NCBI GenBank assembly: GCA_030428695.1
Contig: JAUIEM010000026.1
Coordinates: 1 to 40,150 of the forward strand
Source: a bacterium
GTDB taxonomy: Bacteria; Planctomycetota; J058; JAJDCP01
DNA: 40,150 nucleotides
Direction of reading: 5' to 3'
Part shown: in pieces, positions 14,402 through 40,150 of the stretch
How positions within the stretch are numbered: the stretch's first letter is position 1
Layout of the letters: each line of letters starts with the position of its first letter
The notes under the pieces: model-generated
Databases searched by the model: none
The model's input: only the letters and a program-made list of their open reading frames with translations
What the model was told of the DNA's origin: nothing
Position numbers and translations under genes: made by a program

Positions 14402-14806
14402 TCAGAAGCGGTCCAGGCCCGGCCCGGAGAACTTCTGCTCCATGAAGTCGCCGACGGCGGCGAGGTTGGCGAGCGCGAGGGCGAGCTGCGCCGGGCTGCA
14501 GGCCGCCGCCGACTGGCTCCAGACCAGCGCGATCGCCCCGTCGGGGTCGATGGCGAAGGCCGCGAACAGCAGCTCGTGGTTCTTGCGCAACAGGTAGCGG
14601 TAGAGGTTGAGCTCGGTGTCGTCGGTGAGCAGACAGGAGCACTGGGTGCGGCAGCGCACCGCCTCGCCGTCCCAGCTGACCGTCACCCGCTGGGCGCGCC
14701 CGCCCTCGAGCGGCACCTCGACGCAGGAGGAGCGGTCGGGGTTGCCGGGCAGGATCCGCGCCTGCAGGCTCTCCGCCGCCTCAGCGACCGTCTTCGCGAA
14801 GTCCAT
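14402..14806 (-). CDS. Small conserved-looking protein of unknown function (134 aa)
   Basis: ATG at 14806 preceded by GGAGG, lying inside the end of the permease gene (26-base overlap). The protein is soluble and alpha/beta, with three internal cysteines in CRTQCSC (residues ~52-58) and a helical C-terminus (SPAQLALALANLAAVGDFMEQKF). The length and pattern resemble type III secretion chaperone (CesT/YbjN-like) folds, but I cannot establish this from sequence alone. It sits between the permease and Ham1 genes on the same strand, so it is likely in the same transcript. Confidence 0.7.
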   Translation of the reverse strand: MDFAKTVAEAAESLQARILPGNPDRSSCVEVPLEGGRAQRVTVSWDGEAVRCRTQCSCLLTDDTELNLYRYLLRKNHELLFAAFAIDPDGAIALVWSQSAAACSPAQLALALANLAAVGDFMEQKFSGPGLDRF

Positions 14807-16625
14807 CGTGGCCTCCCTCCGGCGGCGTCTCGCCGTCCGGGGCTGGTGGTAGCGGCGGGGCCGGCGCCAGGGGCGACGCCAGCGGAGCCTGCGGCGGAAG
14901 CGGAGGAACCCTCCCCTGCGGCGGGCCCATCCCCTGCGGCGGGCCCTGCGGCGGGCCCATCCCCGGCGGCCGCCAGTCCGGCGGCGGCGGACCGCCCTGC
15001 GGGGGAGGAGGCACCGGCCCGCCGGGCTTCGGCGGCGGCCCGAGGCGGCTGCGCAGCTCGACGCTCGGGGGAATCTGCCGGTCGCTGTTCGTCAGCCGGG
15101 CGAGCATCCTGTCGAAGGTCGCGACCAGGATCGTCAGCAGCAGCGCGACCCCGACCATATCGTAGAAGATCTCGACGGCGTTCAACACCATCACGACCTC
15201 TCCCTGCCCCCCCCGCCCGGCGGCCGAGAACAGCAGGTAGCTGCCCGCGAAGGGGCTGAGCCCGCCCTGGCAGCAGGCGCAGAAGATGCCGTGCAGCAGG
15301 TAGAACAACAGCCCGACCACGCTCGCCCGCAGGGCCGTCCCGAGCCAGGCCGACAGGGCGAGGCCGACCATCGCGTAGTAGAGCAGGCCGCCGAGGAAGC
15401 TGGCGGAGCGGACGAACGCGTGCTCCGTCTCGACCCGCCCGAGGCCGTAGCAGATCGCGAGCCGGACGCCGATCAGCGCCAGCCCCGGCAGGGCGTAGAC
15501 CGTCAGCGCCGACACCTTCGCGAAGCAGTAGCGCAGCCCCGTCACCGGCGTGGTCGCGAGCACGGTGAAGGTGTTCGCGGCGCGCTCGTTCGCGATCAGC
15601 TGGCAGCCACGCAGCAGCATCACCAGCTGCAGGGCGGTGACCAGCAGCCCGAGCGAGAAGGCCTGGTACTGCGGGTTGTTGAGCTCGAGCAGCGCCTTGT
15701 CCAGGCTGAGCTTGTAGAGCTGACGCTGGACGAGCACCAGGGCGAGGTCGCCGAGGAAGACCAGCACGAGCAGCAGCAGGTAGACGACGACGCTGCCGCG
15801 CACGTTGTAGCGGAAGACGGGGAAGCGCCCGAGGCTGCGCCCCTTGCCGAGCAGCGTCGTCTTCCTGCGCAGCCGGTGCGACAGCCAGGAGTCGCTGACC
15901 AGCCCGTGCAGCGCTGTCGACACCAGGCTGAGCCCGACCGTCGCGACGACGTACAGGAGCGTCGGCCGCCACCAGCTCCCGGCCTCGGTCCCCGCGAGCA
16001 GGATCGCGTGCAGGGGCGAGATCAGCACCCGCGCCTCCTTCCCGACCTCGCCGGCGAACAGCACACCGACGGTGAAGTACAGGAAGGTGACGAGATAGGC
16101 GAGCACGGTCGCGGTCAGGGGCTTTTTGACCATCAGCCCGAAGCAGCTGCCGAGGGCGCAGGTCAACAGCGCGAAGCCGAGCAGCACCGGCAGGACCGGC
16201 AGCAGGAAGTCGACGAACGAGGCCCCGAGCAGGGCCGCGATCCCGAACATCGGCAGGCCGAGGGAGAACTTGTCGAGCAGGTTCCCGAAGGCCCCGAAGG
16301 TCTTGCCGAGGGTGATCGTGAAGATGCTCAGCCCCGAGACCCGCAGGGACTCGAAGGTCTTGTTCGCCCGCTCCCGCGCCAGCGCCGCCGAGGAGGTCGC
16401 CGGCCCGAGCAGCAGGGTCAGGAAGAACATCAGCTGCACCATCATGCCGAGCAGCCGGAAGCCGAAGGCCCGCGCGTCGGGCAGCGCCCGGCTCTGCATC
16501 TCGACGAACACCCAGACCACCGGGATGCACAGCAGCGTCGCGATCAGCGCCCGGAACACGAAGGCGCGGGCTCGCCAGGAGTCCCGGGCGATCTCGCGAC
16601 GAACCAGGGTCCACAGGCTGCGCAC
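14781..16625 (-). CDS. Fused double ABC-2-type permease with proline-rich tail
   Basis: 614 residues, about a dozen TM helices in two similar halves. Each half carries the ABC-2 coupling-helix signature: ALARERANKTFESLRVSGLS in the first and ANERAANTFTVLATTPVTG in the second, equivalent to the eReqgTlelL-x-TP motif. So this is two permease units in one chain, forming a complete channel for an exporter. GTG start at 16625 directly follows the NYN gene's stop with GGAG upstream. After the last helix a ~110-residue tail is almost only Pro, Gly and Gln (GPPQGPPQGMGPPQGRVPP). No ATPase subunit is encoded nearby. The exported substrate is unknown; genes downstream suggest a nucleotide-derived product, but this is only an inference. 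Confidence 0.8.
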   Translation of the reverse strand: MRSLWTLVRREIARDSWRARAFVFRALIATLLCIPVVWVFVEMQSRALPDARAFGFRLLGMMVQLMFFLTLLLGPATSSAALARERANKTFESLRVSGLSIFTITLGKTFGAFGNLLDKFSLGLPMFGIAALLGASFVDFLLPVLPVLLGFALLTCALGSCFGLMVKKPLTATVLAYLVTFLYFTVGVLFAGEVGKEARVLISPLHAILLAGTEAGSWWRPTLLYVVATVGLSLVSTALHGLVSDSWLSHRLRRKTTLLGKGRSLGRFPVFRYNVRGSVVVYLLLLVLVFLGDLALVLVQRQLYKLSLDKALLELNNPQYQAFSLGLLVTALQLVMLLRGCQLIANERAANTFTVLATTPVTGLRYCFAKVSALTVYALPGLALIGVRLAICYGLGRVETEHAFVRSASFLGGLLYYAMVGLALSAWLGTALRASVVGLLFYLLHGIFCACCQGGLSPFAGSYLLFSAAGRGGQGEVVMVLNAVEIFYDMVGVALLLTILVATFDRMLARLTNSDRQIPPSVELRSRLGPPPKPGGPVPPPPQGGPPPPDWRPPGMGPPQGPPQGMGPPQGRVPPLPPQAPLASPLAPAPPLPPAPDGETPPEGGHDGLREDGR

Positions 16626-20534: not shown

Positions 20535-20753
20535 ATGCCCTCCCTGCGCCTGAACCCCGAAGACGACCCGAGCGCGGTCGCCCGCGAGCTGCGGCGGCTC
20601 AGCCTCGGCCTCGACAAGGGCGACCGCCGGCTCGCCGAGCTCGCCCTCGCCCGCTGTGACTTCCTCGCCAGCAAGACCGGCGGCCACGCCCGCCTCGACG
20701 AGCAGGTCGCGGCGCTGCGGCAGAAGGCGGAGGCCATCCTCGGGGGAGGCTGA
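20535..20753 (+). CDS. Small helical protein (72 aa) upstream of DUF4132 gene
   Basis: ATG at 20535; the Shine-Dalgarno sequence is weak (GGAG 9-12 bases upstream). The protein is charged and predicted all-helical (LRRLSLGLDKGDRRLAELAL ... LDEQVAALRQKAEAIL), with no family I can name. Its TGA overlaps the next ATG by one base (TGATG), showing translational coupling. It may be a partner or regulator of the DUF4132 protein. Confidence 0.65.
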   Translation: MPSLRLNPEDDPSAVARELRRLSLGLDKGDRRLAELALARCDFLASKTGGHARLDEQVAALRQKAEAILGGG

Positions 20754-23071
20754 TGGGCTTCGACCGCGCCGCCTGCCTCGCGCGCCTCGCCCGCTTCGTC
20801 GATCCCGCCCGCGGCGCGTCGTGGCGGGAGGATGGCCCGCGACTGCCGATGGCGGAAGCCGAGGCGCGGTTCTGGCTACGCCTGCTCGCGGTCGTCGGCG
20901 ACCACGATCGCGCGTCGCTGCTCGCCCAGGCCCAGGATCTCGACGTCGCGCGGCCGCTGCGCTGGCCGGAGGCCGCCCAGGCGATCGCCTCCACGCCGCT
21001 GCCCGAAGCGATGACGGTGCCGCTCTGCGGGCTCCCGCCCTACGTCGTCTGCCGCGCCCTGCGCGCCCCCTTCCCCACGAGCCTGCGGGTCGCGCACGCG
21101 TTCCGGGAGCGGGCGCTGCCCGACCTGGACGGAGCCGCGCGGGAGCGCCTGCGGCGGGAGCTCGAGGTCGCCCCGGAGGACTGGCCCACCACGACGGAGG
21201 ACACGCCGAGCGCCCTGTTCTTCCTCGCCGCCGCCCTCGGTATGCGCGACGCGATCCTGCCCGTGGTCGAGAGCTGGCCCGCCCCCGCGGACCCCATCCG
21301 CGCCGCCCGCATCCAGCGCGCCCATCAGCCCCACTGGCTGCTGCTCGCGCTGTCCAGGGACGAGGCGCTGGCGCACTTCCGGCGGCTGTCCCTGCGCTGC
21401 CCGTCGCGTAGCTTCCTCGAGGCCTGGCTGGCCTTGACCGGGGTGGACGGCGTCGAGCCCGCCGGCCAGCGGCTCGAGAGCCCGCGCCTGCTCGCCCGCC
21501 TCGCGCAGGTGCTCGCCCCGGAGACCGGACGGCTGATGGCGGGATTGCACGCCGGCCCGCTCGCCGTGCAGGCCCAGGCCTGGCTGGCCGCCCATCCCGC
21601 GCTCGCTCCGGCGCCGACCGAGGCCGACAGGGCCGACCGCGAGCGGCTCGAGCGCCGCGCCGACGCCGCCCGCGACACGCGCGCCCTGCGCGCCGGGCTC
21701 GAGCTCGAGCGGCTGCCGGCTCTGACCCGGGGCGGCGAGGCGGTGCCTCTCGACGAGGTGCGCTCGCAGCTCGAGGTTGTGCGCGCGGCCGCTCCCTTCG
21801 AGGTCACTCCCGGCGTGCGGCGCTTCGCCGCGGGCCTGGACCCGGAGAGCCGCGCGGTCTTCGGTGACGCCTTCGGCCGTCATCACGCGGGCGACCTCGA
21901 GCTCGCGCCCCCGTTGTGCCACGTCCTCGCGCTGTTCGGCGGCCCCGGCGTGGTCGGGCTGCTGGCTCCGGACAAGGAGGTCGACCCCGAGCGCTGGCGT
22001 GCACAGCTCGAGGCCTGGCGCTACCGCTGCTCGGCCCTGCAGCTGTGCGGGAGCGACGAGGCGCTGCGCATCCTGGTCTCCCACACGGCCGCCGACCGCC
22101 CGCGCAGCCTGCGCGACGCCGCCTTCCTGGCCCTGTCCGCGCTCGCCGCCGAGCGCGGCTGCGAGCGCGAGGAGCTGTTCGACGCGGTCGCCCCCGACTT
22201 CGACTGCGCGGACCGTCGCCTGTCCTACGGGGAGCGTTCCTTCCGGCTCGTCTTCGACCCGTCCCTGAAGCCGCGCCTGCGCTGCGCGGACGGCAGCCTG
22301 CGCAAGGGCCTGCCCCGGGCCCGCAAGAGTGACGACCCGGCGCGGGTCGCCGAGGCGAAGGCGCGGTGGAAGCGCTGGAAGAAGAACATCGCCGCCTTCT
22401 CGAAGGGCCAGAGGTCGCGCCTGAAGCAGGCGATGCTGCGCGGCAGACGCTGGGCACCGGACAGCTTCCGCGCGCAGTACACCGGGACGGGCCTGCGTGG
22501 CCTGCTCGCCCGGCGCCTGATCTGGGGCGCCTTCGCCCCGGACGGCGCGCTGCTCTTCAGCTTCCGCGTCGACGCGGACGGCGCCGCCTGCGACCTCGAG
22601 GACAGCCCGCGGACGCTGCCGGAGGACGCCCGCATCGGCCTGATCGACGCGAACCACCTCCGCCTCGAGGAGCTCGAGCGCTGGCTCGAGATCCTGCGCG
22701 ACTACGAGCTGTTCCAGCCCTTCACCCAGCTGTCGCGCGTCGTCCTGCGGGTCGAGCCGGGCGACGCCGAGGAGCGCCAGCTCCCGCTGCCCGCCGAGGC
22801 GACCTGCAGGCTGCCGAAGTTCTTCGCGATCCTGCGCAACACGAAGTGGATCCGCGACCCCGACGGCCGGGACATGCTCAAGGACTTCCCTCGGGCCCGC
22901 CAACGCGCCTTTCTCCGCTACCGCACCGCGGGCGACGAGGTCGAGCTCGAGCGGGTGGTCTTCCAGCCCTTCGACTTCGACGCGACCGGGGGCCTGAACC
23001 TCGCGCTCGGCCAGGTCCACCCGGTCGTGTTCAGCGATGTCGCCCGCGTGGTCGCCGCGATCCTGCGCTGA
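20753..23071 (+). CDS. DUF4132 domain-containing protein (772 aa)
   Basis: 772 residues, starting at the TGATG overlap. The C-terminal part (residues ~535-770) reads RWKRWKKNIAAFSKGQRSRL, AMLRGRRW, ARRLIWGAF, RIGLIDANHL and DYELFQPFTQLSR, the layout of the DUF4132 family (related to MolR/WGR proteins). The N-terminal half is helical, Leu/Ala/Arg-rich and may form HEAT-like repeats. There is no signal peptide or TM helix. Family function is not established; members often occur next to WGR or MoxR/VWA genes. Neither is adjacent here. It ends nine bases from the convergent OB-fold gene. Confidence 0.8.
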   Translation: MGFDRAACLARLARFVDPARGASWREDGPRLPMAEAEARFWLRLLAVVGDHDRASLLAQAQDLDVARPLRWPEAAQAIASTPLPEAMTVPLCGLPPYVVCRALRAPFPTSLRVAHAFRERALPDLDGAARERLRRELEVAPEDWPTTTEDTPSALFFLAAALGMRDAILPVVESWPAPADPIRAARIQRAHQPHWLLLALSRDEALAHFRRLSLRCPSRSFLEAWLALTGVDGVEPAGQRLESPRLLARLAQVLAPETGRLMAGLHAGPLAVQAQAWLAAHPALAPAPTEADRADRERLERRADAARDTRALRAGLELERLPALTRGGEAVPLDEVRSQLEVVRAAAPFEVTPGVRRFAAGLDPESRAVFGDAFGRHHAGDLELAPPLCHVLALFGGPGVVGLLAPDKEVDPERWRAQLEAWRYRCSALQLCGSDEALRILVSHTAADRPRSLRDAAFLALSALAAERGCEREELFDAVAPDFDCADRRLSYGERSFRLVFDPSLKPRLRCADGSLRKGLPRARKSDDPARVAEAKARWKRWKKNIAAFSKGQRSRLKQAMLRGRRWAPDSFRAQYTGTGLRGLLARRLIWGAFAPDGALLFSFRVDADGAACDLEDSPRTLPEDARIGLIDANHLRLEELERWLEILRDYELFQPFTQLSRVVLRVEPGDAEERQLPLPAEATCRLPKFFAILRNTKWIRDPDGRDMLKDFPRARQRAFLRYRTAGDEVELERVVFQPFDFDATGGLNLALGQVHPVVFSDVARVVAAILR

Positions 23072-23080
23072 GGCCTCTCC

Positions 23081-23515
23081 CTAAGGCCGGCCCACGCCGG
23101 TGAAGATCACCGGGTCCAGGCGCAGGCGCTCGTGCTTCCACACACAGCGCCCCCGCACCCCGACGCGCGCGCCGTTTTCCGGCCAGGCGAGCTCGCTGAC
23201 CACCGGCGCCAGGCGCAGGCGCCCGCCGCCCCGGCCGATCAGCACCGCGCGGCCGAAGTTGTTCTCGAGGGTGCCGAGCAGCTCGAGCACTTTGCCGTCG
23301 TAGGCGAGGGCCGCCGAGTCCGGAGCGGTGCGGAAGCGCAGCAGCAGCGCGTCGAGGTCGACCGCGAGGCCGGGCTCCTCGCCGAGGGCGCCGGCGCCGA
23401 GGTCGCGGACCCGGGGCTCGAGGAAGAGGGACAGGACGCCGCCGAGGGTCAGCAGCACCAGGCAGCCCTGCAGGGCGCGGGTCAGGCGGGGATGCGGGAC
23501 GCGGGGCGTTGCCAT
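23081..23515 (-). CDS. Membrane-anchored OB-fold (tRNA_anti-like) protein
   Basis: 144 residues from the ATG at 23515 (GGAGG six bases upstream); the open frame to 23560 has no start signal. One TM helix (ALQGCLVLLTLGGVLSLF, ~18-35) is followed by an OB-fold. DLDALLLRFRTAPDSAALAYDGKVLELLGTLE and the GARVGVRGRC segment resemble the tRNA_anti-like family, where ...AA..Y.gK.i.v.G... is diagnostic. It is 51 bases downstream of the methyltransferase gene on the same strand, so it is probably the last gene of the peptide-array transcript. Function unknown. Confidence 0.68.
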   Translation of the reverse strand: MATPRVPHPRLTRALQGCLVLLTLGGVLSLFLEPRVRDLGAGALGEEPGLAVDLDALLLRFRTAPDSAALAYDGKVLELLGTLENNFGRAVLIGRGGGRLRLAPVVSELAWPENGARVGVRGRCVWKHERLRLDPVIFTGVGRP

Positions 23516-23566
23516 CGGGAGCCTCCGGGGGCGCACCCGCCCCCGAGCCGTCCGCATCATACCGCC

Positions 23567-24274
23567 TCAGCGCCTGCCCAGGAAGGCCGGCACGTTCCCC
23601 TCCAGCGGCGCGTCGAGCGACTCCGCCCGGAAGCCGACCGCGTCGAGCAGCCGCAGCCAGTCGGCCCGGGCGAACAGGCCCTCGGCGTGGCGCTCGTGGT
23701 GGCCGCGCACGGTGCCGTCGCGGTCGCGCAAGAGGAAGGCGTAGTCGACGAGGAAGCTCGTGTCCGTCGGGTCGGGGTCCCAGCTCCACTCGAGGTAGCG
23801 CAAGCCGCGGCCGTCCCGGTCGCAGCCGCCGCTGTCGGTGCCGGGTTGGAAGGTCTCGCGCACGCAGTCGGGCACGACCAGCAGCGCGCCGCCCGGGCGC
23901 AGGTGCTCCCAGGCGGTGCGGAAGGCGGCGGCCAGCTCCTCCTCCGTGGTCATGTACATCACCGCGTCGTGCAGCAGCACCGCGTCGAAGCGCCGCCCCA
24001 GCCGCAGGCTGCGCATGTCGCCGAGGACGTGCTCGCAGTCAGGGTTGAGGGCGCGGCTGACCGCGAGCATGCCGGGGGCCGCATCGACCAGGGTCAGGCG
24101 CCAGACGTCGCGGAGGTGCGAGGCGGTGTGGCCGCCCCCGCTGCCGAGCTCGAGCACCGTCGTGGGGGAGCAGGCGGCGTCGAGCAGGGAGCGGAAGCAG
24201 GCGGCGTCGGCGACGTAGTCCTCCGGGGGTGAGAACAGCGGCCACCAGTCGGCATGACGTGCGTAGAATTCCAC
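23567..24274 (-). CDS. Class I SAM-dependent methyltransferase
   Basis: 235 residues. I chose the GTG at 24274, preceded by GGAGG at 7-base spacing and giving the usual EFYARHADWWPLF start of this fold; an upstream ATG (24307) has no ribosome site. VLELGSGGGHTASHL (residues 40-54) is the SAM-binding motif I, LVDAAPGMLAVSRALNP motif II, LGDMRSLRLGRRFDAVLLHDAVMYM motifs III-IV, and LRPGGALLVVPD follows. The acceptor cannot be inferred from sequence. Located 43 bases downstream of the fifth small ORF of the peptide array and on the same strand, it may modify those peptides. That is inference from position only. Confidence 0.82.
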   Translation of the reverse strand: MEFYARHADWWPLFSPPEDYVADAACFRSLLDAACSPTTVLELGSGGGHTASHLRDVWRLTLVDAAPGMLAVSRALNPDCEHVLGDMRSLRLGRRFDAVLLHDAVMYMTTEEELAAAFRTAWEHLRPGGALLVVPDCVRETFQPGTDSGGCDRDGRGLRYLEWSWDPDPTDTSFLVDYAFLLRDRDGTVRGHHERHAEGLFARADWLRLLDAVGFRAESLDAPLEGNVPAFLGRR

Positions 24275-24317
24275 CGCGGTCCCTCCACTGCTGGCGGGGA
24301 CCAGCATAGCACAGGGC

Positions 24318-24419
24318 TCAGGAGCGGGCGGCGGGCACGGACGGGACAGGCGCGGCGGAGACGGGCTTCGCTCCCGGGCGCGGGTTGCGTCGGGTGGGGA
24401 TGCGCAGGCGGACTCTCAT
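24318..24419 (-). CDS. Small basic Pro-rich peptide (33 aa), coupled to peptide gene 4
   Basis: Its ATG overlaps the stop of the fourth 22-residue peptide (ATGA). The product starts MRVRLRIPTRRNPRPG, then is Ala/Val/Pro-rich to the stop. It differs from the four array peptides. There is only a weak GAAGAGG ribosome site, so it would rely on coupling. It could be a genuine leader or peptide, or readable by chance in GC-rich DNA. Confidence 0.42.
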   Translation of the reverse strand: MRVRLRIPTRRNPRPGAKPVSAAPVPSVPAARS

Positions 24420-24484
24420 CGCGCGGCCTCTTCGCTGCGGTTGATCCGGAAGCCGCCACTGCGGACGCGGGTCTTGCTCTTCAT
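24416..24484 (-). CDS. Array peptide 4 (22 aa)
   Basis: Fourth and last copy. AGGAG lies 7 bases before the ATG. It differs from peptide 2 at residue 14 (Ile for Leu) and residue 22 (Arg instead of Asp), the latter because its stop has shifted to the ATGA overlap with the next ORF. Shared core: KTRVRSGGFR-[LI]-NRSEEAA. Basic N-terminal half, acidic C-terminal half, with Gly-Gly at 10-11. Confidence 0.72.
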   Translation of the reverse strand: MKSKTRVRSGGFRINRSEEAAR

Positions 24485-24517
24485 GGTCGATCTCCTGGGA
24501 AGCCGGAAGCGGGCGCG

Positions 24518-24586
24518 TCAGTCCGCGCCCTCCTCGCTGCGGTTGAGCCGGAAGCCGCCACTGCGGACGCGGGTCTTGCTCTTCAT
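24518..24586 (-). CDS. Array peptide 3 (22 aa)
   Basis: Third copy. GAGGAG precedes the ATG. It is identical to peptide 2 except Gly for Ala at residue 20. A 60-base stretch around the start, including the ribosome site, is almost unchanged from copy 2, so this is a recent duplication. The 33-base spacer to copy 4 shows no hairpin. Confidence 0.75.
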   Translation of the reverse strand: MKSKTRVRSGGFRLNRSEEGAD

Positions 24587-24624
24587 GATCGTTCTCCTCG
24601 TGATGTTCGGGGGTCAGGGCTGCG

Positions 24625-24693
24625 TCAGTCCGCGGCCTCTTCGCTGCGGTTGAGCCGGAAGCCGCCACTGCGGACGCGGGTCTTGCTCTTCAT
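24625..24693 (-). CDS. Array peptide 2 (22 aa)
   Basis: Second copy. AAGGAG with 7-base spacing before the ATG. The product begins MKSKTRVRSGG and continues FRLNRSEEAAD. The basic half (residues 1-8) and acidic tail (18-22) are joined by SGG at 9-11. The Gly-Gly recalls double-glycine leader cleavage sites, but no C39 peptidase or ABC peptidase gene is in the window. No known family is certain. Confidence 0.75.
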   Translation of the reverse strand: MKSKTRVRSGGFRLNRSEEAAD

Positions 24694-24741
24694 GATCGTT
24701 CTCCTTCTTGGGGGTTGTTCCGAAACAGCGCACGACAGCGA

Positions 24742-24810
24742 TCAGTCCGCGGCCTCTTCGCTGCGGTTGAGTCGCTTGCCGCCACTGTGGATGCGGGTCC
24801 TGGTCTTCAT
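24742..24810 (-). CDS. Array peptide 1 (22 aa), most divergent copy
   Basis: First copy after the sigma-54 promoter; GAGGAGG lies upstream of the ATG. Compared with peptide 2 it has Thr/Ser, Arg/Lys, Ile/Val, His/Arg and Lys/Phe changes at residues 3, 4, 7, 8 and 12 plus one synonymous change. Most substitutions are conservative in this reading frame, which supports selection on the peptide and not just repeated DNA. GG at 10-11 and NRSEEAAD at the end are unchanged. Confidence 0.74.
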   Translation of the reverse strand: MKTRTRIHSGGKRLNRSEEAAD

Positions 24811-24843
24811 GCTTCGTCCTCCTCGGGTTGTGGGAGAGAGGAA

Positions 24844-24860
24844 AGCACACGCCGTGCCAA
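24844..24860 (-). promoter_or_regulatory. Sigma-54 (-24/-12) promoter of the peptide array
   Basis: On the minus strand TGGCACGGCGTGTGCT: GG at -24 and GC at -12 are exactly 10 bases apart, and it differs from TGGCACG-N4-TTGCT at one position. Predicted transcription start is near 24833, 23 bases before the first peptide ATG and just upstream of its ribosome site. The adjacent divergent gene encodes a sigma-54 activator, an arrangement typical of enhancer-binding-protein control. Confidence 0.72.
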
Positions 24861-24960
24861 CCGCCGATCCCGCATTCCTCCGTCACCACCCTCCACCACG
24901 GGTTTCATCCCTTCCCGTCGCGCTCCACCGGAAGTGGAACCCCGACCGCGGCAGGTCTGC

Positions 24961-24966
24961 TATACT
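24961..24966 (+). promoter_or_regulatory. Putative -10 box (TATACT) of the FHA-GAF activator gene
   Basis: TATACT lies 35 bases before the ATG at 24996. No convincing -35 is present at 17 bases. The gap 24811-24995 holds the divergent sigma-54 promoter; I could not see a clear activator-binding palindrome. Confidence 0.4.
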
Positions 24967-24995
24967 CCGGTTGCAACACCTTGCAGGGGAAGTCG

Positions 24996-26843
<1,848 letters not shown>

Positions 26844-26909: not shown

Positions 26910-27752
26910 TTAGACGAGCTTCCGAGGCTGTTGCCCGCCTGCCCACGGCGGGCCGGGGTCGATGTCGAGGACCATCCGCTCCGGGGCGACCAGGGCCTTC
27001 TCGTGCTGGCAGCGCCAGCGGGTGGAGGCGTCGGGCTCCGGCGCGAAGGCCTCGATGGTGTGGCCGTCCTCGATCACGTCGCCCTTCTCGAGCAGGTAAC
27101 CGGCGAGGCCGTAGAGGAGGCCGGCGACCCGCCCCGGCTCGAGGTCGACGAAGTGCAGCTGCGGGTCCGGCAGGCCGAGCGGGGCGAGGCCGACGACGTC
27201 CATCAGCGTCTCGCCGGGCTGCCGCTGCTGGATGTTGAACAGCCGCACGTTCAGGCCCTGGCGGGCGCGCTGGACGGGATCTTCGCAGGCCGCGAGGAAG
27301 GCCTCCGGCGCGACGAGCTTGCCCGCCGGGTGCCAGGCGATCGCGAGCGGCCGGGTGCTGCGCACCACCGCCTCGAGCACCGCGGTGAACAGCTGCAGCC
27401 GGGGCAGCGGGTCGAGGGTGCGGGCGAGCAGGTCGGTCAGCATCGCCTGGTGCCGGCAGCGGGCGAGGGTCGCTTCGGCTTCCGCCCAGTCCCAGGTCTG
27501 CTGCAGGAGCGGGGCGAGGGCCGCGGGGTCGAGCGCGGCGTCCGTCGGGGCCAGCAAGGTCTGGGCCGGCGCCGAGCCGTCGCTGAAGCTGACCGGGTGC
27601 GCGGTGTGGAAGACGTGCCAGCCGCCGCCGTCCTGTTGGTGGACGTCGGCTCCGGGGCTGCTCGCGGCGAGCGCCGGGCGCAGCTCCGGGGCCGCGAGGG
27701 GAGGCTCGCCCTCGTACAAGAGCTCGACATGGTAGATGCTGCGGTCGCTCAT
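26910..27752 (-). CDS. DUF4261 domain-containing protein
   Basis: 280 residues; the ATG overlaps the GST stop as ATGA. The blocks AIAWHPAGKLVAPEAFLAA, LNVRLFNIQQRQPGETLMDVVGL and LGLPDPQLHF...LEKGDVIEDGHTIEAF match DUF4261, a family of unknown function common in many bacteria. No TM or signal segment. Stops at a TAA (26910). A GGGCAACAG/CTGTTGCCC inverted repeat (26874-26882, 26938-26946) spans the convergent stop region and may help end transcription. Likely co-expressed with the GST and possibly the XylR-like activator. Confidence 0.83.
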   Translation of the reverse strand: MSDRSIYHVELLYEGEPPLAAPELRPALAASSPGADVHQQDGGGWHVFHTAHPVSFSDGSAPAQTLLAPTDAALDPAALAPLLQQTWDWAEAEATLARCRHQAMLTDLLARTLDPLPRLQLFTAVLEAVVRSTRPLAIAWHPAGKLVAPEAFLAACEDPVQRARQGLNVRLFNIQQRQPGETLMDVVGLAPLGLPDPQLHFVDLEPGRVAGLLYGLAGYLLEKGDVIEDGHTIEAFAPEPDASTRWRCQHEKALVAPERMVLDIDPGPPWAGGQQPRKLV

Positions 27753-28458: not shown

Positions 28459-30072
28459 CTATGCCTGCTCCAACCCGTACTTGCGCAGCTTCCGGTACAG
28501 GGTCGAGATGCCGATCTCGAGCCGGGCGGCCGCCGCGGTGCGGTTGCCGTCGGTCGCCTGGAGAGCGGCGCGGATCGCCCAGGCCTCGATCGCGGCCAGG
28601 CTCTGGGCGGGCGGCGCGACCGTGGCGGCCTCGCGGATGGTCAGGGGCAGGTCGCCGGCGGCGATGCGGTCGCCGCTGGCGAGGATCGCGCCGTGCTCGA
28701 TCGCGTGCTCGAGCTCGCGGACGTTCCCCGGCCAGTCGTGCCGCAGGAGCAGCTCGAGGGCCTCCGGGGTCAGGCCGAGCAGGTGGCGCCGCAGGCGTTG
28801 GGCCTGGTGCTCGACGAACATCCGGGCCAGCTCGGGGATGTCGTCACGGCGCTCGGCGAGCGGCAACATCCGCAGCTCGATCACGCGCAGCCGGTAGAGC
28901 AGGTCCTTGCGGAAGCGGCCGGCCTCGACCTCCGCGTCGAGGTCGCGGCTGGTCGCGGCGAGGATGCGGGTGTCGAAGGGCCGGCTCGCGGAGCTTCCGA
29001 CCGGCCGCACCTCCCGCTCCTGCAGTACGCGCAAGAGCTTGCTCTGCATCGCCGGGCTGGTCTCGCCGACCTCGTCGAGCAACAGGGTGCCGCCGCTCGC
29101 CGCCTCGAAGAAGCCCTTGCGGTCGCGGGAGGCGCCGGTGAAGGCGCCCGCGACGTGGCCGAACAGCTCCGACTCGAGCACCGTCTCGCCGACCGCGGCA
29201 CAGTTGACCGCGATGAAGGGTCCGGAGGAGCGCGGCGAGCTCTTGTGCACGAGGCGGGCGATACGCTCCTTGCCGGTGCCGCTCGGGCCGGTGATCAGGA
29301 CGGTGCTGTCGAAGGGGGCGACGCGCCGGGCGAGGGCGATGGTGTCGCGCATCGCCTTGCTGCGCGCGACGACCTCCGCGATGCCGAGCTGGTCGTCGGC
29401 GATCTCCCGCCGGGCCCGCTGCAGGCGCGACTCCGCCTCCTTCAGGCGCGCGGTCACCGCGCGCAGCTCGGCGTTGAGGCCGGTCCACTCGTAGGCGGAG
29501 CGGACGTCGGGCAGGCGCTCCCCCCAGTCCTCCGCAAACTCCCCGACCAGCTGGCAGACCGGGTCCCCGCGGCCGGCGCAGCGGGTCTCGACGCACAGCA
29601 CCTGGCGGCGCTGCACCCGGCTGAGGTAGCCGCTGGCGAAGCCGGTCAGCGTCCAGCACACCGGCTCCTCGGCGGGGCCGATGTGGGTGCGGTGCTGCTC
29701 GGCCTCGTAGGAGTGCCGCCACAGGCACTCGGCGAAGGGCGGCGGGCCTTCGGCCTCGGTGCGCACCACCGGCTCGATGTCGACCATGCCGAGCAGCATG
29801 TGCAGGCGGCTGCCGGCCCGCTCCCACTCCCGCGGCGAGTCCCAGGGAATCGCCCCCTCGAGGGCCTCGGCGGTGCGCCAGCCGTGGGCGTAGCCGAAGC
29901 GGGTCAGGAGGCAACGGGCGGTCGCCGCGCCGAGGGAGTCGATCAGCTCCTTGCGCAACAGCCCGAGGGCCGCGGCGTCGAGCAGCAGGGCGCGCTGGCC
30001 GGCGAAGGAGATCCTGCCTCCCGCCGCGGGGAAGTCGAGCAGCTCGTGCAGGCGCAGGTCGGTGACCTTCAT
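28459..30072 (-). CDS. XylR/DmpR-type sigma-54 activator (XylR_N + V4R + AAA+ + HTH)
   Basis: 537 residues from ATG 30072; an upstream ATG at 30105 exists but the XylR_N domain begins at MKVTDLRLHEL. Residues ~1-90: XylR_N (ISFAGQRALLLDAAALGLLRKELIDSLG). Residues ~110-190: V4R small-molecule domain (CWTLTGFASGYLSRVQRRQVLCVE...CAGRGDPVCQ). B-linker coiled coil, then AAA+ with GPSGTGKE (~262), GHVAGAFTGAS (~309) and TLLLDEVGE, and a C-terminal Fis-type HTH (GNRTAAAARLEIGISTLYRKL). XylR/DmpR proteins are switched on by direct binding of aromatic effectors. A TACCCT box ends eight bases before the start codon; if used, the mRNA would be nearly leaderless. Divergent from the pirin gene, which carries a sigma-54 promoter. 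Confidence 0.9.
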   Translation of the reverse strand: MKVTDLRLHELLDFPAAGGRISFAGQRALLLDAAALGLLRKELIDSLGAATARCLLTRFGYAHGWRTAEALEGAIPWDSPREWERAGSRLHMLLGMVDIEPVVRTEAEGPPPFAECLWRHSYEAEQHRTHIGPAEEPVCWTLTGFASGYLSRVQRRQVLCVETRCAGRGDPVCQLVGEFAEDWGERLPDVRSAYEWTGLNAELRAVTARLKEAESRLQRARREIADDQLGIAEVVARSKAMRDTIALARRVAPFDSTVLITGPSGTGKERIARLVHKSSPRSSGPFIAVNCAAVGETVLESELFGHVAGAFTGASRDRKGFFEAASGGTLLLDEVGETSPAMQSKLLRVLQEREVRPVGSSASRPFDTRILAATSRDLDAEVEAGRFRKDLLYRLRVIELRMLPLAERRDDIPELARMFVEHQAQRLRRHLLGLTPEALELLLRHDWPGNVRELEHAIEHGAILASGDRIAAGDLPLTIREAATVAPPAQSLAAIEAWAIRAALQATDGNRTAAAARLEIGISTLYRKLRKYGLEQA

Positions 30073-30181
30073 ACCCCGCAGGGTAGCACGTCGGGCGCAA
30101 CCCATCCATTCTGACAGGGTCCGATTCCCATCCTGAACCGTTCACCGGGACGGCGGGACGGAGGCATGCGGCTCCGCGGTC

Positions 30182-33213: not shown

Positions 33214-36200
33214 TCAGGCGAGCTTCCGCCGCCGCAGCAGCAGCGCGACGACGAGCAGGCCGAGCCCGAGCCAGGCGCTGCCCGGGGCCGCGTCGGCGCG
33301 CACGGCGCAGCTGCTGCTTCCGCCGCCGCCCCCTCCGCCGCCACCGCTGCCGTCGCTGCCGGTCACCGCGACCGAGGTAACGGTACCAGGGATGCCGGCG
33401 GTGTTCGACTCGAGCTCGACCGACCCGCTGACGGTGCCGGCGGTGTTCGCCGTGTAGGCGACCGTGATCACCCGCACCTGACCGGCGGTCAGGCTGATCG
33501 GAAGGGTGAACCCGCTGACCCGGAAGTCGGGACTGCCGGTGACGTCGATGGCGGTGATGACCAGGGTGCCGATGCCGCTGTTGGAGAGGCTCCACAGCGC
33601 CGTGACGGTGCCGCCGGCGGCGTTGGCGTTGAGGTCGGTCGTGCCGACCACCGCCAGGCCCGGCTGGTTCGGCGGCGACTGGCCGGTGCCGCTGACGGTG
33701 ATCATGTAGCTGCCTTCGTCCGGGTCGCTGTTGGAGAGCTGCACGTCGAAGGAGAACGCGCCGAGCGTCTGGACCGTGAAGGCCGCCGCGAAGGTCGTCG
33801 TCGTGCCGGAGCTGACCGGGCTCGAGGGGCTGCCCGCCAGGGTCAGGCCGGTCACATTCTGGGCGTTGGAGAGCACGGGGCTCGACACGCTGAGGTCGAC
33901 CGGACCGCTGTTCTCGATCGTGATCGTCACGGTCTGGATCTGGCCGATGAACCGGTCTCCGACGTCGGCGCTCGCGCCCGAGGCGACCGAGGTCCCGGCC
34001 GGCACCTGCAGGTCGATCTCGGCCGAGCCCGACGCGCCCGAGCCCTCGACGGTGATCGTGTAGCTGGCCTCGTTCGCGTCGTTGTTCGTGACGACGACAT
34101 CGAACGAGAACGGCCCGCCTCCGCTGATCGTGTAGGCGAGATCGAGCCCCGTCGTGCTGCCGGGCGTCACGGTCTGGGCTCCACTGGTCGAGGTGACCGA
34201 GGCGCTGACGTTGCTCTGGCTGCTGATCGCGACGCTGGTGATGTCGAGGTTGCCCGTGCCGGTGTTGCTGATCGTGTACGACAGGCTGAGCTGCTGCCCG
34301 ATCGCGAGGTTGCCCTGCGGGTCGGTGGACCCGTTCGCCAGCGAGCTCGTGCCCTTGAGCAGATCGATCTCCGGGTCGGCGCCGGTGCCCGTGCCGCTGA
34401 CCGTGATGTCGTAGGGGTTCTCGTCCGCGTCGTTGCTCGCGATCTCGAGGTCGAAGCTGAACGCGCCGTTCCCGGTCGGCTGCACGTTGACGGCGAGGCC
34501 GACCGCGGTGTTCGGGCCGACCGTGATCGGGAAGCTCGCGGTCGTGCTGACGTTGACGTTGCTCTGCCCGGAGAAGGTCACGCCGGTCACGACCAGGTCG
34601 TCGCCGCCGGCGCTGTTGTCGAGCATGTAGGTGAAGATGTTGCTCCCGGTGCTCGCGGAGACCTGCCCGAGGTCGTCGGAGCCGCCGTCGGCGATCGACG
34701 AGCCGCGCACGATGTCGATCTCCGGCGTGCCGCCGATGCCGGAGCCGGTCACGGTGATGTCGTAGGGGTCGGTCGAGCCGCCGGTGTTGTTCTCGATCTC
34801 GAGGACGGCGTTGAACGCGCCGTTCCCGAACGGATCGACGAGCAGCGCCAGGGTGCTCGAGCCCCCGGCGGGGACGACGAGCGGCAGGCTGGTCGAGGAG
34901 CTGACCGCGACGTTGCTCGCGCCGACCGCGGTGACCGCGTCGATGGTCAGGGGCACGTTGCCGCTGTTGATCACCGTGTAGTCGATCGTGCCGCCGGCGA
35001 CCGGCAGGTTCCCGAGGGCGTCGGAGCCGCCGTCGGCGACCGGGTTGCCGCTGCGCTCGAGCTCGATCGACGGGGCGGCGCCCGGCTGCGGATCGACCGA
35101 GCCGGAGACGACGAAGTTGTCGAGGCGCAGGGTGCCTCCCGAGCTGGTCGCGCCGCTGGCGATGATCTGGATCTCGACGTCGCCGAACAAGGGCCCGAGC
35201 CCGATCGGCACGTTCTGGGCCGTGTAGGTCGAGCCCGCGCCGACCGCCAGCTGCCCGGGGTCGAAGCCGGTGTCGACGCCGTCCTCGAGGATGCGGACCG
35301 TGAACTCGTCCGGCCCGGTGTTCGAGCGTCGGCTGTCGAAGACGAGCGCGTCCAGGGTGAGCTGGCGGAAGGCCGCCGGCGTCAGGGTGAAGGTGAAGTA
35401 CTGCGTGCCCGGGGCGCCGGCCCAGTCGTTCGCGGAGATGCCGAAGGGGCTGCCGTTGCCGCTGAAGAAGGAGGGCGACCCGGAGAACAGGCCGAAGTCG
35501 GTCGCGCTGAGGTCGGGGTCGGTGGTCGTCGCGACGTCGGTCGAGGCGCCGCCGGCGTCCTCGAAGTCGTAGGTGGCGACCGGGCCGAACACCAGCTCTT
35601 CCTGGAATTGCAGGGCCCAGGCGATCACGGTGCCGTCGTCGCCGACCATGTCGTCGTTGACCTCGAGGGTCCAGTTGCCGTTCGGGTCGATGCCGGTGCC
35701 CGCGGGGAAGAGCTGCGCCTGCCACACGGTGTTGTCCTCGACCGTGAACAGGCCCGTGAAGGGCGCGGACTGGCCGACCACGCTCGGCTGGGTCGAGCCC
35801 GGGTCGCGCTGCGGGTCGCCGATGCCGGTCAGGGCGAGGTGGCGCATGTCCTGGCCTGCGCCGCCCTCGTCGGCGATCAGGGTGATCGGGCTGCCGCCGG
35901 GTGGGGTCAGGGTGATGTCGACGTCGCCGGTCGCGGTGTGCGCGATCACGAGCTCGACGGTCAGCGAGTGGATGCTGGTCGGCTGGCCACTGACGACGAG
36001 GTTCCCGGTGAACGAGGTGGTGTTGTCGAAGTCCCCGGCCGGCGAGCCGACCAGGGCGACGGCGGTCTCGGTGCCGGAGGGCGCGATGCCCGTTCCGGTC
36101 AGGCTCAGCGTGAAGGGATCGGGCAGGTTGGTCGCGTCGTGGCCGATCTCGAGGGTCGCCGTTCGCGGCCCGTAGGAGAGCGGGTCGAAAGCGACGGGCA

Positions 36201-38430
36201 GCGTGATCGTGCCGCCCGCGCCGATCGTCGCGCTTCCTCCGCTGAAGGCCGACGCGTCGAAGCCGAAGTCGCCCGGATCGGTGCCGCTGAGCACGGGCAG
36301 GTCGACGGTCAGGGGCGCGTTGCCGGCGTTCTGGATCACGACGTTCGAGCCCGCGGCCGCCGGGGTGAAGATGTTCGCGCTGCCGAAGTCGACCGTCGCG
36401 CCGTTGGCGTACGCGGTCGCCCCGTCACTGACCTGCAGCAGCACCGCGGGCGGCGCCGCGTCGCCGGTGAGGGGCACCACGAACGGGCTCGGCGTCGACG
36501 GGTCGGTGTGGGTGAACTCGATCGCGGCGGTCTTCGTGCCGGTGGTGGCCGGGCTGAACACGACCTCCATGCGGATGCAGCCGTGGCGGTAGATGTCGAC
36601 GGGGTAGCTCAGGCGGTCGTCGAACACGCTGAGCGAGAAGTCCGCCGCGTCGGTCCCGGTCAGCGCGGGCACGCTGGTGATCGTGTAGGGGTCGAGGTCG
36701 AGGTTGGTGACGAACAGCTTGAGCGGGGCCGACGGCGAGCCTGGGGTGCCGGACAGGGTGCGGGCGGTGTTGGCCGCCGCCTGGCCGTTGCCCACCGTCG
36801 CGCCGATGGTCGTCAGCTCCCGCACGATCGGCGTCGCGCCCTGGTTGCCGTCCGAGGCGATGATCGCGACGTCGTCGACCGCGAAGCCGTCGGTCGGGAT
36901 CCCGAAGTTGTCGATCTCCTGGATGCGGATCAGGACGTTGTCCCCGAAAGTCCCCCCGAGGGCGTTGACAGCCGCGCTGAGGTCGATCGTCACATAGTGG
37001 TAGTCCAACGCCAACCCCGGGCTGATGACGAGGTTGTGCAGGATGGTCTCCCAGCTCGCCCCGCCGTTGCGACTGAGCGCGACGAGGTCGAAGGGGTCGT
37101 CCTCGCTGTTGATCTCTGCGAACTTGAAGCTGAACGTGACGTCGTCGGTCGCTGGATCGAGGGCGGACAGGTCGTAGTAGAAGTTCAGGCCGCCGACCGC
37201 GGCAGGGTTCTGGTTCGGTGGATAGTCCGCGACGAACTGTACCGAGCCGGAGACGGGGTCCTGGATGAGGCCGGCCGGATGGTTGGCGTCGGTGAACGTG
37301 ATGCGCGGCGGGAAGAAGGACGCGAACGGGGTGCCGAGCGCCGTGCCCGTGGCGCTGGTCGCCAACGGGTTGTTGCTGCCGGCGAAGGCGACCACGTACG
37401 TCTGCGGAGTCGTCGCCTCGAAGTCCTGGACGAAGCTGGAGTTCGGCGTAACCACCCGGGGATCGAGCACCGTGCAGCTGATCGAGTGGACCGGGAAGGC
37501 CTGGTTGCTCGCCGGGCTGCTCGAAGCGATCACGTCGCTCGCGTTGTTCAGCGACAGGGTCAGGTAGTGGGGCGTCGCGATGTCCGCCACGACGGAGATG
37601 TTCGCCGACGGCGAGATCTGCAGGTCCGGCATCAGGTCGAACAGCGTGCTGGTCAGCGACAGGTCGGCCGCGGTCGCAAGCACCGTGTCGATGCCGGCCT
37701 CGAACACCCCCTCGATGCCGTTGTCGGCGATCACCCGGACGTTGGTCACCTGGGTGCCGTCGGTGCCGGTGTAGAACAGCTCGAGGGCGTCGATGGTCGC
37801 CGGCAGACCCGAGGTGGCGTCGAACTCGGCGATGACGATGTCGGTGCCGGTCGGGAAGGCCGCGCCCTGGTTGTCGTCGGGGATGATCACGTAGTCGGCG
37901 GTCGGCGAGCTCGAGCCGAACTCGATGGTCCAGGAGTCGAGCGTCCCGGTGTTCGCCGCGGTGTCGTCGAAGACCTGCAGCTCCCAGGTGCCGTTGCCAT
38001 CGGTGCCGTACACCATGTCCCAGTTGGTGAGATCCTCGGGGGAGTAGAAGCCGGTCCACGGCGGGGTGAAGATCGTGATCGAGCCGAGGGGCGTGAAGAT
38101 CGCGTCCGCCTGGCTGGTCAGGTTCGTCATCGTGAAGTTGTCGCCCGTGCCTCCCCGGTTGAGACACAGCCCGATCGTCGGGCCGGTCGGCGGGACGAGG
38201 AGCACCTGGAGGTCGCCGACATTCGGGTGGGTGATGTTCAGCTGCACCCGGATCGAGGTCACGCTGGTCGGCGCCCCGGCGACGGTGATCGGATCGATCG
38301 CGCCGTTGGCGGGGAAGCCGGCGTCGGGGATCGCGACCCCGGGGCTGCTGGTGAAGGTCTGACTCCACGCTCCCGGGGCGAGGGCGAAGAGCAACGAAAC
38401 GATCAGGGCGCAGCGCAGGGGATGACGCAT
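33214..38430 (-). CDS. Giant secreted surface protein (1738 aa) with P-domains, choice-of-anchor repeats and C-terminal sorting tail
   Basis: ATG at 38430 with GAGGAGG; a signal peptide (MRHPLRCALIVSLLFALAPGAWS) follows. Approximate layout: proprotein-convertase P-domain-like region ~27-170 (ITHPNVGDLQVLLVPPTGPT, NGTWELQVFDD); DUF-type beta domain ~175-247; MAM-like ~330-530; choice-of-anchor D units ~533-660 and 660-783; second P-domain-like ~790-943; another beta-jelly roll ~950-1113; then four ~115-residue Ig-like repeats (each begins with [PA]-E-I-[DE]-L-like and ends DITV-[ST]-GSG) ~1120-1583 and a fifth degenerate unit. The end is a nine-glycine tract, SSSC, a TM helix (WLGLGLLVVALLL) and RRRK: a MYXO-CTERM-like sorting tail for surface anchoring. 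Role: adhesin or surface-layer protein. Confidence 0.85.
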   Translation of the reverse strand: MRHPLRCALIVSLLFALAPGAWSQTFTSSPGVAIPDAGFPANGAIDPITVAGAPTSVTSIRVQLNITHPNVGDLQVLLVPPTGPTIGLCLNRGGTGDNFTMTNLTSQADAIFTPLGSITIFTPPWTGFYSPEDLTNWDMVYGTDGNGTWELQVFDDTAANTGTLDSWTIEFGSSSPTADYVIIPDDNQGAAFPTGTDIVIAEFDATSGLPATIDALELFYTGTDGTQVTNVRVIADNGIEGVFEAGIDTVLATAADLSLTSTLFDLMPDLQISPSANISVVADIATPHYLTLSLNNASDVIASSSPASNQAFPVHSISCTVLDPRVVTPNSSFVQDFEATTPQTYVVAFAGSNNPLATSATGTALGTPFASFFPPRITFTDANHPAGLIQDPVSGSVQFVADYPPNQNPAAVGGLNFYYDLSALDPATDDVTFSFKFAEINSEDDPFDLVALSRNGGASWETILHNLVISPGLALDYHYVTIDLSAAVNALGGTFGDNVLIRIQEIDNFGIPTDGFAVDDVAIIASDGNQGATPIVRELTTIGATVGNGQAAANTARTLSGTPGSPSAPLKLFVTNLDLDPYTITSVPALTGTDAADFSLSVFDDRLSYPVDIYRHGCIRMEVVFSPATTGTKTAAIEFTHTDPSTPSPFVVPLTGDAAPPAVLLQVSDGATAYANGATVDFGSANIFTPAAAGSNVVIQNAGNAPLTVDLPVLSGTDPGDFGFDASAFSGGSATIGAGGTITLPVAFDPLSYGPRTATLEIGHDATNLPDPFTLSLTGTGIAPSGTETAVALVGSPAGDFDNTTSFTGNLVVSGQPTSIHSLTVELVIAHTATGDVDITLTPPGGSPITLIADEGGAGQDMRHLALTGIGDPQRDPGSTQPSVVGQSAPFTGLFTVEDNTVWQAQLFPAGTGIDPNGNWTLEVNDDMVGDDGTVIAWALQFQEELVFGPVATYDFEDAGGASTDVATTTDPDLSATDFGLFSGSPSFFSGNGSPFGISANDWAGAPGTQYFTFTLTPAAFRQLTLDALVFDSRRSNTGPDEFTVRILEDGVDTGFDPGQLAVGAGSTYTAQNVPIGLGPLFGDVEIQIIASGATSSGGTLRLDNFVVSGSVDPQPGAAPSIELERSGNPVADGGSDALGNLPVAGGTIDYTVINSGNVPLTIDAVTAVGASNVAVSSSTSLPLVVPAGGSSTLALLVDPFGNGAFNAVLEIENNTGGSTDPYDITVTGSGIGGTPEIDIVRGSSIADGGSDDLGQVSASTGSNIFTYMLDNSAGGDDLVVTGVTFSGQSNVNVSTTASFPITVGPNTAVGLAVNVQPTGNGAFSFDLEIASNDADENPYDITVSGTGTGADPEIDLLKGTSSLANGSTDPQGNLAIGQQLSLSYTISNTGTGNLDITSVAISSQSNVSASVTSTSGAQTVTPGSTTGLDLAYTISGGGPFSFDVVVTNNDANEASYTITVEGSGASGSAEIDLQVPAGTSVASGASADVGDRFIGQIQTVTITIENSGPVDLSVSSPVLSNAQNVTGLTLAGSPSSPVSSGTTTTFAAAFTVQTLGAFSFDVQLSNSDPDEGSYMITVSGTGQSPPNQPGLAVVGTTDLNANAAGGTVTALWSLSNSGIGTLVITAIDVTGSPDFRVSGFTLPISLTAGQVRVITVAYTANTAGTVSGSVELESNTAGIPGTVTSVAVTGSDGSGGGGGGGGGSSSCAVRADAAPGSAWLGLGLLVVALLLRRRKLA

Positions 38431-38511
38431 CGCGGGCCTCCTCGGGGCAGACGGCACGCGTGTTCCCGCGCCGTCGCGTGGGGCAATTCGAGGTGCAGAA
38501 GCAATGCATCC

Positions 38512-39136: not shown

Positions 39137-40150
39137 TCAGGGCGCGGAGAGGTCGAGGTCGAGCATCGTGTCGTCGTCGCGGAAGACCCGCTCGGAGGCG
39201 CACGAGACCACCCGGATCAGGTCGAGGATCCCCGGCCGGCGCGTCGGTTCGCGCTGCAACGCCGCCCGCATCAGGGCGCGGGGCTCGATGGGAAAGACCT
39301 CCGTCGGGACGTCGTGGAGCGGCGGGAGCTCGCCGCGGAACAGGAACCAGGCGAGGGCGGCGAGGCTGTACACCTCGCTGCGCGAGTCCTCGGTCGGCCG
39401 GCAGGGGTCGCGGGCCTCCGGCGGCAGGAAGGGCGCCGCGGTGGCGGGCAGCGGGATGCGCGCGCCGTCCGGCGCGAGGCGATGCAGCCCGAAGTCGGTC
39501 AGCGTGGGACGCCCGTCCCTGCCGATGATCACCGCCCCGGGATGCAGGCAGCCGTGGACGTGGCCGTCGCTGGCCGCGTCCATGCAGGCCCGCGCGGCGC
39601 CCGCCACGATGGCGAGCGCCTCCTCGTCGGGCAGCACCCGCAGCTTGCGGACCTTGCGGAAGGCGTCGACGCCAGCGACGAAGTCGGAGACGACGAGCAC
39701 CTGGTTGCGGTAGGCCAGCACGTCCCGCACCCGCGCGACCCCCTGCCAGGTCGGCAGCCCGATCAGGGGCCGCCAGGCCTCGAGCAGGAGCCGCGCGCGG
39801 TCGGCGCGCGCGGGCAGGGCGCGGACCGCGACGATCTCGCCGGTCTCGCGGTGCCGCGCCCGGAACAGCCGGCCGAGGGGGCCCTCGGCGAGCCGGTTGA
39901 GGGCCGCGTACTGGTAGAGCGCCGGCTCCTGGGCGAGGGGCTCGTGGCGACGGGGAGCCAGGCCGGGGACGAAGGGGGTGCGGCTCGGCCCGCCGTGCCG
40001 GGGACCGGCCTTCCGCGCGGGGCGCCGGCGGCGCGTGGGGGGAGTCGCCTCGCCCGCCGGCACGCGCCCGACCTTGCGCGGCGCGGCCGCCCCCTTCCCC
40101 AGGGACGCGGCGTCGCGCACGGGCGCGAGACCGACGGGCGTCGCGCGGCG
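39137..40150 (-). CDS. Degenerate protein-kinase-like (pseudokinase) protein, start beyond or near the window edge
   Basis: At least 327 codons; no in-frame stop occurs up to base 40150, and the GTG at 40120 has no clear ribosome site, so the 5' end is uncertain. A Pro/Arg-rich N-terminus is followed by a kinase-like domain: YAALNRLAEGPLGRLFRARH (glycine-loop equivalent), ETGEIVAVRAL (VAIK-like, lysine replaced by Arg), GHVHGCLHPGAVIIGRDGRP (HRD-x-K-P-x-x-N region with Asp and Asn lost), LTDFGLHR (DFG kept), and YSLAALAWFLF. Loss of VAIK Lys, HRD Asp and the catalytic Asn predicts no or minimal phosphotransfer. It could be a scaffold or ATP-binding regulator, like other bacterial Hanks-type pseudokinases. 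Confidence 0.78.
   Translation of the reverse strand, partial: RRATPVGLAPVRDAASLGKGAAAPRKVGRVPAGEATPPTRRRRPARKAGPRHGGPSRTPFVPGLAPRRHEPLAQEPALYQYAALNRLAEGPLGRLFRARHRETGEIVAVRALPARADRARLLLEAWRPLIGLPTWQGVARVRDVLAYRNQVLVVSDFVAGVDAFRKVRKLRVLPDEEALAIVAGAARACMDAASDGHVHGCLHPGAVIIGRDGRPTLTDFGLHRLAPDGARIPLPATAAPFLPPEARDPCRPTEDSRSEVYSLAALAWFLFRGELPPLHDVPTEVFPIEPRALMRAALQREPTRRPGILDLIRVVSCASERVFRDDDTMLDLDLSAP

Follow-up and report, generated by a model that had tools for sequence, protein, structure and literature searches.

Within the 40,150-nt stretch of bacterial DNA analyzed here (phylum Planctomycetota, contig JAUIEM010000026.1; hereafter the window, GC content 72.6%), we observe an array of four tandem open reading frames (ORFs), each of which spans 69 nt, encodes a peptide of 22 amino acids (aa) followed by TGA, and is preceded by an AGGAG-type ribosome site (zones CCCGAGGAGGACGAAGC, CAAGAAGGAGAACGATC, TCACGAGGAGAACGATC, and TTCCCAGGAGATCGACC). 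The array is followed by a gene for a methyltransferase and preceded by a divergent gene for a sigma-54 activator (Table 1). The first-pass annotation had described the four ORFs with their own ribosome sites and named no strand; their positions are confirmed and they lie on the minus strand. The proposal that they are probably real small genes below the usual gene-caller size is also supported: genes of 22 codons fall under the size cut-off of common gene callers, so that whole families can be missed. Two details given there need small corrections: in the core pattern (K-[ST]-[KR]-T-R-[VI]-x-S-G-G, then R-[LI]-NRSEE) one residue separates SGG from R, and of the peptides described as basic at the N terminus and acidic at the C terminus, the last copy is less acidic at its C terminus because its last residue is R. 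The promoter and the divergent activator described below were absent from that annotation.

Table 1. Genes and putative control elements of the peptide-gene locus (positions in the window)
Feature	Position	Strand	Basis
Class I SAM-dependent methyltransferase, possible last gene of the transcript	23567..24307	-	Pfam, homologues; co-transcription predicted
Peptide gene 4, 22 aa, MKSKTRVRSGGFRINRSEEAAR	24416..24484	-	sequence
Peptide gene 3, 22 aa, MKSKTRVRSGGFRLNRSEEGAD	24518..24586	-	sequence
Peptide gene 2, 22 aa, MKSKTRVRSGGFRLNRSEEAAD	24625..24693	-	sequence
Peptide gene 1 (nearest the putative promoter, transcribed first), 22 aa, MKTRTRIHSGGKRLNRSEEAAD	24742..24810	-	sequence
Putative sigma-54-type -24/-12 promoter, TTGGCACGGCGTGTGCT	24844..24860	-	consensus scan and weight-scheme score
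Perfect palindrome TCCAC-N5-GTGGA, candidate activator-binding site	24924..24938	.	pattern scan; function putative
Sigma-54 activator, 615 aa (FHA, GAF, AAA+)	24996..26843	+	Pfam (run with the longer ORF that begins at 24828), motif search

A direct-repeat finder returned four copies of 84 nt with spacings of 102, 107, and 117, the other three copies matching the reference at 76, 87, and 98% identity, and TRF reported 3.8 copies of a unit of ~107 nt (score, 489). Similarity between the copies spans the ribosome site to the stop codon. The genes are separated by spacers of 33, 38, and 48 nt, the cores of which (16, 21, and 31 nt) show no significant alignment relative to shuffled controls (P = 0.10, 0.22, and 0.22), which is weak evidence since these cores are short. 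The peptide motif, written as a degenerate DNA pattern derived from the four copies themselves, has four matches in the window, compared with 0.00 expected (100 shuffles). In addition, among 977 ribosome-site-preceded ORFs of 15 to 45 aa in 134 sequences (the window and 133 loci that were fetched for other purposes and are not a random sample), the four peptide ORFs are the only ones with same-strand paralogous neighbors at less than 1 kb. In the last copy the final codon is changed and TGA is retained at the same codon.

Substitutions between copies 1 and 2 had earlier been read as mostly conservative and as arguing for selection on the peptides. The six single-base replacements (T/S, R/K, I/V, H/R, L/I, and A/G) indeed have a mean BLOSUM62 score of 1.33, compared with approximately -0.4 for random changes in the same frame (P = 0.001 to 0.003 under three transition/transversion settings), and over all six frames the mean score of the replacements is highest in the peptide frame (0.38, versus -0.40 to -1.30). 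This part of the argument stands; it is weakened by two multi-base codons, K/F and D/R, which are not conservative and bring P to 0.08 once included (eight replacement pairs), and by synonymous changes, which show no excess (two of eight single-base changes, the expectation without selection). Since no homologue was found, no evolutionary test extends beyond the four copies. The lack of a synonymous excess, as well as the near identity of copies 2 to 4 at synonymous sites too (2 to 6 differences in 69), would also fit a DNA- or RNA-level repeat in which the ORFs are incidental. However, the boundaries of the repeat are the ribosome site and the stop codon, with the spacers differing as given above, the replacements score best in the peptide frame, the RNA fold of any copy is no better than shuffles (z = +0.5 to +1.0), and an Rfam scan of the window gave nothing at gathering score, which together make such a repeat improbable. 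A diversity-generating retroelement was considered because a reverse-transcriptase ORF lies 17 kb away, and is unlikely: 10 of the 14 variable sites of the repeats hold A in some copy, but adenines are not significantly more variable with any copy as template (P = 0.10, 1.0, 0.72, and 0.73), and the reverse-transcriptase matches are of the retron type. Overall, we consider it probable that the four ORFs are translated genes.

The element TGGCAC-N5-GTGCT ahead of peptide gene 1 has one mismatch to the sigma-54 consensus (TGGCAC-N5-7-TTGCT, as given in PMC12316311). Under a weight scheme it is the best-scoring sigma-54-like site of the window, with 0.03 equally good sites per window in 60 random first-order sequences. 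A consensus scan allowing at most one mismatch found it as the single match in the window, against 0.21 expected, with at least one match in 20 of 100 shuffles; because of this expectation, the case for a promoter comes mainly from its place, which is intergenic, in the right direction, and 33 nt before the ATG. The palindrome lies ~97 nt upstream of the predicted transcription start, a usual distance for sigma-54 activator sites. Its exact form has a single match in the window, with 0.00 expected in 100 shuffles and 1.09 expected when one mismatch is allowed, counts that are flattering because the pattern was picked after the site was seen. No terminator-like and no sigma-70-like site was found by a scan of the region 23500-25100. 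The divergent activator carries GAFTGA at aa 370 (Pfam Sigma54_activat, 1.8e-69), its start codon and C-terminal helix-turn-helix being assigned by eye, and is predicted to act on the array promoter. Given the sigma-54 element, the divergent activator, and the palindrome, the four genes are probably transcribed as a single unit upon sigma-54-dependent induction, and this unit may include the downstream methyltransferase gene.

Relatives of the activator (E ≤ 1e-60) are present in all 12 genomes of the chosen class, three of them near full length (L090, L091, and L112, with 46, 42, and 38% identity, respectively), and at these three loci we found no peptide array and no sigma-54-like site scoring at least 13 upstream of the activator gene. 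The window also encodes a second sigma-54 activator (XylR_N, V4R, AAA+, and HTH_8; 28459-30105, minus strand), 1.6 kb past the first. For the methyltransferase, an in-frame GTG at 24274 after a GGAGG site is, by eye, the likelier start. Of 7999 candidates scored, 6703 are homologues at E ≤ 0.001, and the three organism names listed for the 120 best are Holophagales, Longimicrobiaceae, and Gemmataceae; since the best homologues span these three groups, the enzyme is not peculiar to one phylum. It occurs in 1 of 12 class genomes (E ≤ 1e-30) and in 14 of 199 Acidobacteriota genomes (E ≤ 1e-60), and the fetched flanks (up to 1.5 kb) of the 14 Acidobacteriota loci and the one class relative hold no paralogous mini-genes. 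Thus, relatives of both the activator and the methyltransferase occur without the array, and neither neighbor predicts it. For RsmB, all 10 organism names listed for the 120 best homologues belong to Planctomycetota or its subgroups, and the top genome by E value in a sample of 294 has 53% identity; the window most likely derives from a GC-rich planctomycete lineage that branches deeply.

The peptides are very hydrophilic (GRAVY, -1.25 to -1.50) with a charge of +2.5 to +4.5, lack both cysteine and any hydrophobic stretch, and are predicted by composition to be soluble and cationic. Pfam, scanned with three of the four peptides and a 44-residue join, gave no row at E ≤ 10, and the peptide copies scanned against NCBIfam gave one row, chorismate mutase, at 13.2 bits against a cut-off of 73. 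The initial suggestions of a signalling peptide, a precursor of a ribosomally synthesized and modified peptide (RiPP), or a toxin/antitoxin find no support here, with no precursor-family match for the three peptides scanned, no C39 peptidase among the Pfam matches of 27 window ORFs, and no hydrophobic segment. Compared with known systems, the locus shares with sigma-54 operons controlled by a divergent enhancer-binding protein the -24/-12 element, the GAFTGA activator, and the spacing of the palindrome; it differs in its predicted targets, four ORFs of 22 codons each, and in the FHA and GAF input domains of the activator. Tandem, near-identical short ORFs with their own ribosome sites and an adjacent methyltransferase gene are also seen in multicopy RiPP precursor arrays, whereas here a generic methyltransferase is the sole recognized candidate for a modifying enzyme, with no recognized leader and no C39 exporter. 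Type I toxin and small membrane peptide arrays likewise consist of tandem short ORFs, but the present peptides have no hydrophobic segment; antisense RNA was covered by the Rfam scan only.

We found no peptide relative with a strict DNA pattern in a collection of 84,980 species, with seven profile searches that together covered 1,480 genome slots (some genomes counted twice, phylum names inferred), or among 5.8 billion predicted proteins, where the 44-residue join gave no candidate; proteins of 22 aa are seldom included in such sets. The strict pattern had 6 matches in viral_contigs and 38 in genome_contigs, and all 44, checked in translation, were unlike the peptides past the searched motif. 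Profile A1 gave nothing credible in sets of 8, 396, 12, 392, 220, 213, and 239 genomes (E limits of 1, 0.02, 0.5, 0.01, 0.01, 0.01, and 0.005), its 27 loci (8, 2, 7, 1, 3, 6, and 0) having a lowest E of 0.0029, at noise level. Of these loci 23 were inspected (L048, L051, L065, and L067 were left out), L049 and L050 by motif scan only and L140 without the matched stretch displayed, and none of the displayed matches contains the whole motif. Most matches sit in long frames; short open frames are those of L049 (24 aa), L064 (31), L066 (48), L136 (34), and L142 (56), with L053 a frame of 17 aa with an internal stop. Partial likenesses in L136 (TRIHSGGFRSR), L142 (KTRVRSGGF), L141 (KSRTHLHTGGFRFNQ), and L134 (GGFRLNRSE) were judged to be chance.

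Plasmids and phages likewise held no peptide match, and the six stretches retrieved by profile A1 from viral_contigs included none that was confirmed. In the PDB the 22-mer had no match and the join retrieved one zinc-finger row (E = 1.2). Peptides of the K-A-G-G-xxx-N-H-N type, taken as a comparison, had nothing alike in viral_contigs. Searches of open-licence papers brought up no description of such an array. In a simulated control, which leaves out the first-look filter of the search tool, relatives with 8 of 22 residues changed mostly exceed 22 bits (0.88) and those with 10 changes rarely do (0.08), which places the sensitivity limit of the profile at ~64% identity; the empty result for the 239 genomes, with no known positive, is uninformative by itself. 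A lack of homologues had been named beforehand as a possible refutation of the genes, and although none was found in the collections searched, this is weak evidence given the limited reach of the profile.

With moderate confidence, we favor a joint explanation in which the ORFs are real, tandemly duplicated peptide genes under a sigma-54 promoter switched by the divergent activator, the product being a soluble intracellular effector or regulator. Tandem duplication would have generated four translated genes for one very hydrophilic, cationic 22-residue peptide, and these genes, perhaps with that of the methyltransferase, would be transcribed jointly from a single sigma-54 promoter. The FHA-GAF-AAA+ activator would switch this promoter on, probably via the upstream palindrome, so that four copies with separate ribosome sites could supply a high dose of the peptide upon induction. 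The peptide would most likely work within the cell, in a soluble effector or regulatory role; its basic K-T-R-V-R-S-G-G-F-R-L-N-R stretch could, for instance, contact nucleic acid or a protein. The ORFs, the bounded repeat, the ribosome sites, the match to the promoter consensus, and the domains of the activator are seen in the sequence, from which we infer translation, activation, co-transcription, and site of action, the last from composition only. If the genes are real, an intracellular effector or regulatory role is a tentative assignment that we place slightly below an even chance. A broader version, a new small-peptide system in which a kinase-linked signal would pass through the sigma-54/FHA activator to a dosage-amplified cationic peptide that in turn acts on either a DNA-binding regulator or the activator, is doubtful at present. 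Should the dose-amplified peptide prove to be an effector in a sigma-54/FHA pathway, such regulators would gain a further kind of output. Because the four copies offer internal replication and the promoter and regulator are predicted, translation, induction, and function are each directly testable.

Among the alternatives that accept real genes, the main one is that they encode modified exported peptides (RiPPs) or signalling precursors, in which the multiple copies would be precursors, the GG a cleavage site, and the methyltransferase the modifying enzyme. The tandem copies, the SGG conserved in four of four, and the methyltransferase next to them, which has a daptide (RiPP) methyltransferase as its best match in NCBIfam, would all suit this idea. 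However, with 43.3 bits that match stays below its cut-off of 175, the enzyme reaches the cut-off in none of the 12 listed NCBIfam rows, and its family is large and found without mini-genes at the loci described above. Moreover, no C39 peptidase or other recognized RiPP enzyme appears among the Pfam matches of 27 distinct ORFs of the window (several of which have no Pfam match and could encode an unrecognized enzyme), and the N-terminal stretch up to GG (11 residues) is basic and does not have the hydrophobic pattern that double-glycine leaders carry. We therefore regard a modified exported peptide as unlikely, and only marginally less so once the genes are granted to be real. It is quite improbable that the peptide feeds back on its own activator as a ligand, with a phosphorylated Thr or Ser bound by the FHA domain. 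T5, S9, and S17 are invariant, FHA domains prefer phosphothreonine, and a protein kinase gene is present at 39137-40120, but that gene is 14 kb off. Even less credence is due to the idea that SGGFRLNR-x-E mimics the wing found in DNA-binding regulators of the Rrf2 type, which was prompted by 10 of 14 identities to a protein of another genome assigned to Rrf2 by Pfam; the match is at noise level in the 396-genome search (E = 0.017 for one genome), and the three peptides and the join scanned match no Pfam family at an E value of 10.

Finally, we observe several other features in the window. The reverse-transcriptase ORF (6041-7324, plus strand; YLDD at aa 307) has an N-terminal part that by eye is probably noncoding, and its best matches are retron-type (PADLOC RT_outgroup, 1e-22; NCBIfam St85, 71.8 bits where the cut-off is 235). 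DUF4132 and DUF4261 proteins are encoded at 20753-23071 (plus strand) and 26910-27752 (minus strand), respectively, and six DUF7933 stretches lie at 1676-4585 (minus strand). A 1747-aa ORF at 33214-38457 (minus strand) matches P-domain and HYDIN/ASH Ig-like families, and overlapping GC-rich tandem repeats with units of 12, 18, and 30 nt occupy positions 14900-14984 within the ORF at 14781-16625.
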